Source of the DNA: Propioniciclava tarda
Lineage (GTDB): Bacteria > Actinomycetota > Actinomycetes > Propionibacteriales > Propionibacteriaceae
DNA length: 64,000 bases
NCBI RefSeq assembly: GCF_900182665.1
Contig: NZ_FXTL01000003.1
Span: 62,001-126,000, forward strand
Direction of reading: 5' to 3'
Below the pieces are notes generated by a model, which made no database searches, was not told the origin of the DNA, and was given only the letters and a program-made list of their open reading frames with translations. How positions within the stretch are numbered: position 1 is the first letter of the stretch; each line of letters begins with the position of its first letter. The translations under genes were made by a program, and so were the position numbers. Shown piece after piece: positions 7,903 to 60,516 of the stretch.

Positions 7903-8105
7903 TGCGGAGCCCTTCGACAGGCTCAGGGATCGAAGCCTGAGCGTCCCCGGTCGTCGGCTGAGCTGGTCGAAGCCCGGGTCGCGGACCGTTGGCTGAGCTT
8001 GTCGAAGCCGAGCGCCTCTGTCGTTGGCTGAGCCTGTCGAGGTCGTTGGCCGAGCCTGTCGAGTCCGGGTCGCGGACCGTTGGCTGAGCTTGTCGAAGCC
8101 CTCGC
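7903..8105. repeat. REP-like repeat cluster 1 (six GTTGGCTGAGCTTGTCGAAG-type units)
   Basis: Six imperfect copies of a ~20-nt unit lie in 203 bp between two gene ends: one in the reverse orientation near 7906-7920, then copies beginning near 7953, 7988, 8023, 8044 and 8079. A 36-nt stretch is repeated exactly at 7974-8009 and 8065-8100. Related units occur in clusters at 33.9 and 53.2 kb. Inverted pairs could form hairpins, so the cluster may also terminate transcription. Such extragenic palindromic units are common in actinobacteria; I see no adjacent RAYT-type transposase. Confidence 0.85.
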
Positions 8106-38415: not shown

Positions 38416-38425
38416 TCGAACCTCG

Positions 38426-38460
38426 AACGGCCCAGCCACCCCCGGGGTGGCTGGGCCGTT
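38426..38460 (+). terminator. strong intrinsic hairpin after tsf
   Basis: Arms 38426-38441 and 38445-38460 pair perfectly over at least 15 bp with a tiny C/G loop. It begins 11 nt after the tsf stop and separates rpsB-tsf from pyrH. The usual U-tract is short (GTTCGTCGT). Confidence 0.85.
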
Positions 38461-38572
38461 CGTCGTGTGGGCCGGGCCCCGAGAGCGAGCCGTGCTCCGA
38501 GGTCCACTAGAGTGATCCACGACCCTCACAGCGTGACCGGCGCCCTCGGCGTCCAACCAGCGAAGGAGCCCT

Positions 38573-53240: not shown

Positions 53241-53320
53241 CCCTTCGACAAGCTCAGGGATCGTTGGCTGGGCTTGTCGAAGCCCTCTGGCCCCGCCGTT
53301 GGCTGAGCTTGTCGAAGCCC
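53241..53320. repeat. REP-like repeat cluster 3 (three units, one inverted pair)
   Basis: A 15-nt arm at 53243-53257 and its near-complement at 53268-53282 (one mismatch) can form a hairpin with a 10-nt loop; a third unit follows at 53298-53318. Same family as clusters 1 and 2. It starts 20 nt after the nusA stop, on the left flank of the inserted symporter pair. Confidence 0.85.
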
Positions 53321-56080: not shown

Positions 56081-58969
<2,889 letters not shown>

Positions 58970-58993
58970 TCGATTCGGCAGCTGAATCTGAGT

Positions 58994-59106
58994 GGGGCGG
59001 GGCCGGGACACCCCGGTCCCGCCCCCTCCAGATGATCCGGACGAGGCCCTCGTCCGCATCATCTTCCGGACGCCCGACCGAACCCTGACCGGGGTGTCCC
59101 GGCCCC
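58994..59106 (+). terminator. infB-rbfA attenuator-like region with two alternative folds
   Basis: Fold A is a local terminator-type hairpin: 58994-59007 pairs with 59012-59025 (one wobble) 25 nt after the infB stop. Fold B uses a perfect 18-bp long-range stem, 58999-59016 with 59089-59106, enclosing a second inverted repeat (59031-59045 with 59049-59063, one 2-nt mismatch). Both folds use 58999-59016, so they are mutually exclusive. Fold B ends 70 nt before rbfA. Confidence 0.65.
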
Positions 59107-59176
59107 TTATTCGCCGTGGAGGCTTCCGCTGCCGGGTGCGGTGGGGATGGAAGTCAAGAAAGAAAGGGCTTGTCAC

Positions 59177-59623
59177 ATGGGAAACCCTCGGTACATCAAG
59201 ACCGGTGAGCAGATCAAGCAGATCGTGGCCACCTACATCGAGCGACGCCTGAAGGACCCGCGCCTCGGCTTCGTGACCGTCACCGACGTGCGCATGACCG
59301 GGGACGGGCGCGAGGCGTCCATCTTCTACACCGTCATGGGCGGCGAGCAGGAGCGGACGGACACGGCGGCAGCGCTGGAGTCCGCGCGCGGAATGATCCG
59401 CTCGACGGTCGGCAAGCAACTGGGGATGAAGTTCACCCCGAGCATCACCTTCATCCTGGACGCCATCCCCGAGACCGCCGCCGAGATCGAGGCGGTTCTG
59501 GCCAAGGCGCGCGGGCTGGACGCCGAGGTCGCGGCGAAGGCCGAAGGCGCGGTCTACGCGGGCGAGGCCGACCCGTACAAGAAGCCGCACGTCGACGACG
59601 AAGACGAGGACGACGAGGAGTGA
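59177..59623 (+). CDS. rbfA: ribosome-binding factor A
   Basis: 30S maturation and cold-adaptation factor binding 16S rRNA near helix 1. The 148 residues have the KH-like fold: TGEQIKQIVATYIERRLKDP, RLGFVTVTDVRMTGDGREAS, FYTVMGG and PSITFILDAIPE. The C-terminal ~30 residues are acidic (DDEDEDDEE end). ATG 59177 is chosen because the family begins M-x-NPR; earlier in-frame starts add an atypical leader. AAAGG lies 9 nt upstream. The stop overlaps the truB start. Confidence 0.93.
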   Translation: MGNPRYIKTGEQIKQIVATYIERRLKDPRLGFVTVTDVRMTGDGREASIFYTVMGGEQERTDTAAALESARGMIRSTVGKQLGMKFTPSITFILDAIPETAAEIEAVLAKARGLDAEVAAKAEGAVYAGEADPYKKPHVDDEDEDDEE

Positions 59624-60516
59624 CCTCGGGCTTCCTGGTCGTCGACAAGCCGCAGGGCTGCACGTCGCACACCGTGGTGGCGCGCGCTCGGCGCGCGCTC
59701 GGCACCAAGAAGATCGGCCACGCCGGGACGCTCGACCCGTTGGCGACCGGCGTGCTCCTGCTCGGCGTTGGCGCCGGGACGCGCCTGCTCGGTCACCTGA
59801 CGCTCGCTGACAAGACGTACGAGACGACGATCCGGCTGGGCGTCTCGACCGTCACGGACGACTCCGAGGGCGAGATCACCGCCGCACCCGGGGCGTCCGG
59901 TCTGGATCGCGGCCGACTGGACGCAGCCGTCGCCGCCCTGACCGGCGACATCGTCCAGGTGCCGAGCGCGGTCTCGGCGATCAAGGTGGACGGCAAGCGC
60001 GCCTATGCCCTCGTCAGAGCTGGCGAGGCGGTCGAGCTCAGGGGCCGCCCGGTGACGGTCTCGGCCTTCGACGTCCTGGCCGTCCGCGAGACCGACGCCG
60101 ACGGCGTCCGCGTCATCGACATCGACGCCCGGATCGACTGCACGTCCGGCACGTATGTGCGGGCCTTGGCGCGCGATCTCGGGATCGCGCTCGGGACCGG
60201 CGGGCACCTCACCGCCCTGCGCCGGACGCGCGTCGGCCCCTTCAGCATCGACGACGCGACCTGGGACGCCGCCCCCCACGACCCAGGGGCGGGGGAGTGG
60301 CCCCGCCCGGCCCTGATGGATCTCGCGGACCTGGCGCGCCGTTGCTTCCCCGTCGTAGAGGTGGACGCCGACGCGGCCCGCGACATCGGCTACGGACGCC
60401 CGCTGGCCCTCGAGGTGCCGGCCGACCCGACGGCACTGATCTACGACGGACGCTTGTTGGCCCTCTACCGGCCCGCGGCTGGCGGTTCGGTTCCGGTGGC
60501 GGTGCTCCCGGGGTGA
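59620..60516 (+). CDS. truB: tRNA pseudouridine-55 synthase
   Basis: Makes pseudouridine 55 in the T-loop of tRNAs. The 298-residue product opens FLVVDKPQGCTSHTVVARAR and has GHAGTLDPLATGVLLLGVG, with the catalytic Asp in TLDPLATG. KTYETTIRLGVSTVTDD, PSAVSAIKVDGKRAY and the DCTSGTYVRALARDLGIALG block follow, all standard. A PUA-like C-terminus is present. The GTG start overlaps rbfA by 4 nt; its stop overlaps the GTG of a decayed membrane-protein gene. Confidence 0.95.
   Translation: MTSGFLVVDKPQGCTSHTVVARARRALGTKKIGHAGTLDPLATGVLLLGVGAGTRLLGHLTLADKTYETTIRLGVSTVTDDSEGEITAAPGASGLDRGRLDAAVAALTGDIVQVPSAVSAIKVDGKRAYALVRAGEAVELRGRPVTVSAFDVLAVRETDADGVRVIDIDARIDCTSGTYVRALARDLGIALGTGGHLTALRRTRVGPFSIDDATWDAAPHDPGAGEWPRPALMDLADLARRCFPVVEVDADAARDIGYGRPLALEVPADPTALIYDGRLLALYRPAAGGSVPVAVLPG

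Follow-up and report, generated by a model that had tools for sequence, protein, structure and literature searches.

The stretch of DNA analysed here, 64,000 nucleotides in length and referred to below as the window, includes the genes infB, rbfA, truB and ribF, and the names that these were given in the first-pass annotation are borne out by matches to protein models. Between the infB stop codon at 58969 and the ATG of rbfA at 59177 there is a gap of 207 nt. It contains a long inverted repeat, P1, which begins 29 nt past the infB stop and whose 3' arm ends 70 nt before the start of rbfA. It also contains a competing local hairpin, P0, and, at the tip of P1, a conserved segment referred to as the cap (Table 1).

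Table 1. Genes and repeat features at the infB-rbfA junction of the window
Feature	Position	Strand	Basis or remark
infB (translation initiation factor IF-2)	56081..58969	+	ORF; NCBIfam IF-2 model, E 1.7e-232
P0, local hairpin that competes with P1; C-box paired with G-rich sequence upstream of it	58994..59025	+	Fold prediction
P1 5' arm, long stem	58999..59018	+	Perfect complement of 59087-59106; covaries in relatives
C-box CCGCCC of the cap	59019..59024	+	Conserved among copies
P2, inner hairpin of the cap, 7+8 bp	59030..59064	+	Predicted fold
Cap 3' box ACGCCCGACCGAACCCT	59070..59086	+	Conserved; loose form in 52/57 copies
P1 3' arm, long stem	59087..59106	+	Inverted-repeat scan
rbfA	59177..59623	+	ORF and protein-model match, E 6.3e-27 (below the model's curated cut-off)
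truB	59620..60516	+	ORF and protein-model match

P1 is a perfect stem of 20 bp, its arms separated by 68 nt, and is the longest perfect inverted repeat in the window when loops of 3-150 nt are allowed. The existence of this stem had been recognized before, with a length of 18 bp that needs to be corrected to 20 bp, and it had been judged unlikely to have arisen by chance. That judgement is sound: in 20 simulated windows generated by a first-order Markov model, the longest stem reached 14 bp. As P1 exceeds the longest stem in all 20 simulated windows and recurs with covariation, a chance origin is ruled out. The second longest perfect inverted repeat in the scan is an 18-bp hairpin with a 3-nt loop at 38424-38462. 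Inverted repeats CTTCGACAAGCTCAG and TCGACAGGCTCAG, at 53243-53317 and 7914-8040, represent a second, shorter repeat in the window, and words resembling CTTCGACAAGCTCAG/TCGACAGGCTCAG are found near some copies of the capped element in other genera.

The inverted repeat that the first-pass annotation saw enclosed by the long stem is real and corresponds to P2. The local hairpin, P0, lies exactly where it had been placed and comprises 14 bp (58994-59007/59012-59025), with three more pairs beneath. P0 and P1 are unable to coexist because both need the strand 58999-59018, and the two folds are mutually exclusive, as had been proposed. The segment 58970-59030 folds to -45.6 kcal/mol (z -5.96), an energy equalled by none of 200 shuffled sequences. 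For the gap as a whole the optimum is -110.9 kcal/mol (z -4.23), and it holds P0 and not P1. The local hairpin had also been called terminator-like, a description that fits its stem but not what follows it. A scan of 58900-59200 returned no terminator-like site with a T-rich tail and no promoter-like site, and neither stem is followed by a U-tract, there being at most four T in any 8 nt of the gap. The same maximum applies to all six gaps of the genus in which the element is found. A canonical Rho-independent terminator is therefore rejected, its hairpin being present and its U-tract absent in all six of these gaps.

Thirteen genomes of the window's genus were sampled, and rbfA was found in all of them. 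Six carry the element between infB and rbfA (G000, which is the window's genome, G005, G006, G008, G009 and G010), with a layout in which an arm ending in GGTC or GGTTC is followed by the CCGCCC box, the inner part, a GCCCGACC...CCCTGA box, of which G009 has a variant, and the complement of the arm. The element was not found in the infB-rbfA gap of the other seven genomes. Among the capless gaps, those at L010, L013, L147, L016, L017 and L020 have other hairpins, the one at L010 resembling the local hairpin of the window, and the gap at L150 is only 9 nt long. Three capless gaps from three species of the genus (L010, L013 and L147) have in common another conserved hairpin, GCTCCCA...CTGATGC and its complement. 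A sequence that could be a promoter, YACTARACTGC...GTTCGAGA, lies just before rbfA at L010, L011, L013 and L147.

The arms of P1 at infB vary between species of the genus, to the extent that their identity (0.41) equals that of shuffled arms. A search for compensatory changes, which the first-pass annotation had put forward as a check, was positive: in an alignment of infB-rbfA copies from five species (A4), 11 of the 14 P1 pairs are altered on both sides. In A4, 92.9% of the P1 cells are paired, as against 25.5-45.7% when the alignment is slid by 1-3 columns; A4 takes in five of the six carrier gaps, G009 being misaligned, and its rows were trimmed to end in the arms, so that the register was given and not found. 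Between the window and G006, the cap at infB has an identity of 0.79 and the C-terminus of InfB is 93% identical. Across the family, 29 of the 35 infB-rbfA gaps tested fold with z <= -3 (60 shuffles each). These 35 come from the 91 of 110 loci in which infB was located, the rest of the 91 consisting of 39 without a located rbfA start, 12 with gaps below 40 nt and five with gaps above 300 nt. A search for rbfA gave no match in two of 117 genomes, and 80 of the remaining 85 main places were taken.

The cap recurs, as CCGCCC, an inner part and ACGCCCGACC...CCCT, on long, near-perfect stems at unrelated loci, from which it follows that the element is not specific to rbfA. The first covariance model (R1), derived from five of the gaps, matches the gap copies and other sites in 15 of 198 genomes of the family, with 18 places in a single Micropruina genome (G050). 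A second covariance model (R2, 26 copies) has matches in 23 of 391 genomes of the order, all belonging to one family and to six of 40 genera, with 11 copies in G065, an Enemella genome, seven in G017 and five in G040. A third (R3) finds the element in seven of 394 sampled genomes of the class, two from the window's family and five from a second family, in which the same boxes sit on their own perfect or near-perfect arms of 22-29 bp. The counts from these large searches are lower bounds, because stricter filters and samples were used. The window's own genome has a single copy. In an Enemella genome, copies occur in pairs of opposite orientation about 1.8 kb apart, at L272 (1082-1205 and 2885-3008) and L273 (1004-1127 and 2813-2936). 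The L272 pair flanks an ORF of 439 amino acids (1360-2679) that by eye is HNH/DUF222-like, and the composite may move as a unit.

Several matches were set aside in assembling the copies. Those in coding regions at L004-L006 showed no more than a degenerate motif and were discarded as chance, and L007 had none. Rows L003:636, L231:2354 and L262:1621 of the R1 and R2 searches, together with two extra L284 rows, were treated as false or degenerate. An alignment of 26 of 31 loci (A6) omits L244 (likely coding and false), L246 and L257 (near-duplicates of L239), L249 and L149, and the final copy set omits L244, L246 and L257, the duplicate G005/G009 loci and most of the near-identical Enemella loci. 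Of 67 matches, 57 from 23 genomes entered the statistics of the family, with a cut-off for the arms of at least 15 nt. Nine of the ten omitted had arms below 15 nt by extension, some through register errors, and the tenth was a second L272 row.

In the 57 copies, Watson-Crick pairs are found at 1280 of 1338 arm positions, and 26 copies are perfect. The stems measure 15-38 bp, the lower end being the cut-off, with a median arm of 23, and the caps measure 48-82 nt. The C-box reads exactly CCGCCC in 47 copies and YYGCCC in 55. A T stands directly after the 3' arm in 41 of 56 copies, which suggests a fixed boundary of the element. In g6 (12 copies), the cap has an identity of 0.93, compared with 0.47 for the arms and 0.35 for shuffled arms; in g18 (21 copies), which we take to be a 'Microlunatus-like' genus, the corresponding values are 0.83, 0.46 and 0.39. 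The arms of the palindromes are about as alike as shuffled arms in g6, g18 and g1, and the comparison with the caps indicates that in these genera the arms belong to the site and the caps to the family. In Micropruina (13 copies), cap and arms are both alike (0.93 and 0.85), and the Enemella copies also have arms in common between sites; in these two genera the sequences suggest that the arms have been carried along by recent dispersal.

Covariation of P1 extends beyond infB. In 26 copies, two-sided changes occur at 12 of 14 pairs, in an alignment that was fitted to the model. In 13 copies from g6 and g15, P1 is paired in 99.5% of cells, with two-sided change at nine of 14 pairs, and the inner hairpin is paired in 90.7% of cells, with two-sided change at four of 13. 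A check for arms copied from nearby DNA found that an arm 13-mer recurs elsewhere in the locus in five rows, two of which represent the same locus.

Some sites are occupied in pairs of species, and here the cap can be set beside its flanks, bearing in mind that the two measures differ in kind, the cap being scored as matches over the shorter length and the flanks as aligned identity. The cap scores 1.00 in L282/L290 (flanks upstream and downstream 79/84%), L293/L294 (90/90%) and L238/L247 (84/82%), 0.92 in L267/L297 (84%, one flank), 0.90 in L260/L270 (83/86%) and 0.88 in L261/L270 (82/87%). In L265/L266 it equals the upstream flank (0.95; flanks 95/91%), and in L260/L261 it is less alike than the flanks (0.83; flanks 92/92%). 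It therefore exceeds both measured flanks in five of the eight pairs and the single measured flank in a sixth. Together with the values at infB, these pairs indicate strong conservation of the cap at most, not all, sites.

The position of the copies relative to genes is biased. Judged by crude gene calls based on ORFs and GC bias, element and upstream gene are co-oriented at 36 of 45 distinct sites and opposed at nine (sign test p 6.6e-5), and they are co-oriented at 24 of 27 sites when Micropruina and Enemella are set aside. For this count, sites that were orthologous or duplicated were pooled into 11 groups, and loci with an ORF across the element were omitted; one site had no upstream call. 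Behind co-oriented genes, the distance from stop to arm is 1-193 nt (median 51, 44 rows). At convergent loci, the element is closer to the stop of the co-oriented gene in 13 of 13 cases, two of which are orthologues. Searches with 20 of the 30 upstream proteins gave a match to a named family for 19, mostly housekeeping. The first ten (10/10) are gyrB, yebC, clpX, aspS, nuoD, a primary-type sigma factor, lysS, uvrB, ffh and map. The second ten (9/10) comprise 6-phosphogluconate dehydrogenase, an ANTAR response regulator, GTP cyclohydrolase I, a UvrD-like helicase, a 2-oxoacid dehydrogenase acyltransferase, glucosamine-6-phosphate isomerase, IstB, an ABC ATPase and a SpoU methylase. No association with one regulon is seen among copies behind gyrB, yebC, clpX, nuoD, aspS, lysS, uvrB, ffh, map, GTP cyclohydrolase I and others. 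Behind yebC, the same site is kept across two genera (L241/L303). In the second family, six of nine copies, amounting to five distinct sites, lie 2-41 nt behind a co-oriented gene, and three (L354, L355 and L360) are not closely behind one. EF-Tu is encoded upstream of L357, as identified by protein search, and, by near-identical sequence, of L361. This pattern of orientation and position suggests an association with the 3' end of the preceding gene, which in the window is infB.

A P0-like stem of more than 7 bp is found only in the window's genus. The CCGCCC box can pair perfectly with upstream sequence over 7-11 bp in all six carriers, which, being kin, amount to much less than six independent cases. 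Among the 51 copies from other places, the best match between C-box and upstream sequence spans 0-7 bp, 7 being reached by one copy. Minimum-energy folds of the growing transcript have P0-type pairing first and P1 once the 3' arm has been made in five of the six species. P0 is lost in G009 at some lengths before the 3' arm is complete, the full gap of the window reverts to P0, and G005 stays in P0 throughout. When P1 is forced, it is better than local-only folds by 16-26 kcal/mol in four of the six species, so that a balanced switch is hardly to be expected in these four. In G005, where 11 bp were forced, its advantage is about 2 kcal/mol, and in the window it falls about 1 kcal/mol short. Left unrestrained, the window and G005 both settle in a P0 fold, which lies 5.0 and 9.5 kcal/mol, respectively, below forced P1. 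On these predictions, the exclusive folds are a trait common to the carriers of the genus; in four species they take the form of an ordered rearrangement, and in the window and G005 the two folds compete more closely.

In high-GC actinobacteria, terminators consisting of a hairpin and a U-tract are scarce, and how genes end is debated. The reading that we favour, with a probability of about 0.45, is that the element in the gap is a putatively transcribed 3'-end hairpin of infB and one copy of a dispersed family. P1, presumably its working fold and 20 bp long here, would bear the conserved cap, in which two C-rich strands enclose an inner part, frequently the hairpin P2. Situated 29 nt past infB, the hairpin most likely defines or protects the 3' end of the infB mRNA, and may separate infB from rbfA-truB-ribF and/or lower the expression of the latter. 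P1 could present a barrier to 3' exonucleases and/or a roughly two-turn substrate for RNase III, with weak termination perhaps added at the hairpin, whilst the cap is probably bound by a sequence-recognising protein. In the window's genus, the upstream stretch would pair with the C-box first, giving P0, which in most species P1 would displace during synthesis of the 3' arm. Propionibacterium acnes belongs to the same family as the window's organism. One study of P. acnes reports staggered, RNase III-like cuts in base-paired mRNA (PMC3848588). Counting against a 3'-end hairpin are the predicted optimum in the window and G005, which is P0 and not P1, the presence of the element at infB in only six of 13 genomes of the genus, the nine of 45 sites with opposite orientation and the three of nine copies in the second family that are not closely behind a co-oriented gene, a cap that at infB is less alike than the protein, and the dispersal with related arms in Micropruina and Enemella, as would be expected of a mobile repeat.

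A functionless mobile repeat is the main rival, although we consider it rather unlikely. It would be a non-autonomous DNA repeat, similar to a MITE or REP, accumulating in or near the 3' hairpins of genes, with arms that are paired through template switching and not through any use of the RNA by the host. The dispersal of copies is in keeping with this, as are 25 matches to a pattern of the right end in G050 and 15 in G065, with none to the reversed pattern in either genome; known copies in G008, G051 and G095 escape the right-end pattern. The arms common to the Enemella copies and the patchy presence of the element also fit, the latter both at infB and in the gyrB-gyrA gaps of g18, three of 19 of which contain the element by eye. 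No clean empty site is evident among the other g18 gaps, which by eye are too divergent. Template-switch mutation during replication could, moreover, create covariation without selection and maintain perfect stems (PMC8794818). However, the orientation bias towards the upstream gene is not accounted for by such a repeat, nor is retention at the same site across species and, behind yebC, across two genera, nor a cap that is more alike than the measured flanks in six of eight same-site pairs. There was also no match in plasmids and phages with one Micropruina query, and none in viral contigs with one exact pattern.

The first-pass annotation had taken the two folds to be an attenuator dedicated to rbfA-truB-ribF, in which P0 and P1 would be alternative states, one of them stopping RNA polymerase. 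Both stems are possible in all six carrier species, P1 covaries, and the two folds of the window lie within 5 kcal/mol of one another. In E. coli, a terminator named t3 closely precedes rbfA and is the likely end point of one transcript band (PMC6511841), which gives a precedent for a brake at this junction, and a BIME-based attenuator before rbfA has been proposed in enterobacteria (PMC2965389). As an account of the element, attenuation is nevertheless improbable, given that no U-tract follows P0 or P1, that P1 outweighs local-only folds in four of the six species, and that P0-like matches are so short outside the genus. A device dedicated to these three genes is contradicted by the cap behind many unrelated genes, including 13 convergent pairs without a co-oriented downstream gene, and by the seven genomes of the genus in which the gap has no element. 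An rbfA attenuator is possible as a genus-specific addition to the element. Improbable too, and placed last, is a simple U-less ('I-shaped') intrinsic terminator of infB with an incidental cap. Such terminators are described for mycobacteria (PMC12288462), and the copies do lie at short distances behind co-oriented stops, but a paper title cited in that source says that the mycobacterial polymerase requires a U-tract, and a sequence-conserved cap common to two families would be left unexplained.

The reading as a 3'-end hairpin can be taken further, to a proposal that we put forward tentatively and at rather less than even odds. The element might represent an undescribed class of actinomycete 3'-end RNA, in which a conserved, protein-binding cap sits on a site-specific stem of about two turns behind housekeeping genes in at least two families. 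Its arms would be kept paired by template switching and selection together, and a co-transcriptional rearrangement from P0 to P1, gained in the window's genus, could set the timing of termination or of processing at the infB-rbfA junction. A capped 3' hairpin with a freely changing stem, occurring behind gyrB, infB, EF-Tu and similar genes, would provide a concrete, testable module for the formation or protection of 3' ends. Long stems at the same site in related species provide a natural series with which to test template switching against selection in stem pairing.

We place the element, which is apparently undescribed, among the dispersed extragenic hairpins or structured RNAs of 3' UTRs. 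No family of Rfam 15 reaches its gathering score in the window or in seven loci with copies. Among weak matches up to E 1, the best (E 0.0085) scores 24.6 bits with a eukaryotic-type microRNA model whose gathering score is 94, and these weak matches are read as chance hairpin matches. A literature search found no title or start of an abstract describing the element, which is weak evidence of absence as most subscription journals lie outside the search. The infB-rbfA gaps of Nocardioides resemble that of the window in having nested long inverted repeats with arms able to pair in more than one way, but their palindromes consist of a different dispersed unit, GACCGGGCACTTC...; the cap motif did not turn up among them, and R2 has no match outside the window's family in the order sample. 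In eight of these gaps (L170, L189, L195, L218, L187, L198, L173 and L178), perfect arms of up to 22 bp enclose or adjoin inner ones whose length reaches 20 bp. The unit GACCGGGCACTTC... has 42-107 matches per genome at up to two mismatches in six of six genomes, often 31 nt apart, and its reversed pattern has 0-3 matches per strand. Three of the 80 loci in the survey of these gaps lacked infB.

The L17 downstream element (PMC2864571) is likewise a conserved RNA structure in a likely gene 3' UTR, but it is found behind genes for one protein, whereas the capped element is found behind many. E. coli t3 is comparable in position, being a structure at the infB-rbfA operon junction, and it differs in that there is no U-tract here; before cold stress, the rbfA mRNA is the least abundant of the E. 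coli operon (PMC6511841). Like the element, REP and BIME sequences are dispersed extragenic palindromes, some of them upstream of rbfA, and they have been suggested to act in mRNA stability or termination. As described in PMC3733652 and PMC2965389, REP families have stems of 5-13 bp and GTAG or CGTC tags. The element described here has, instead, stems of 15-38 bp that in three genera differ from site to site, and what is conserved in it is the cap, 48-82 nt long, at the tip.
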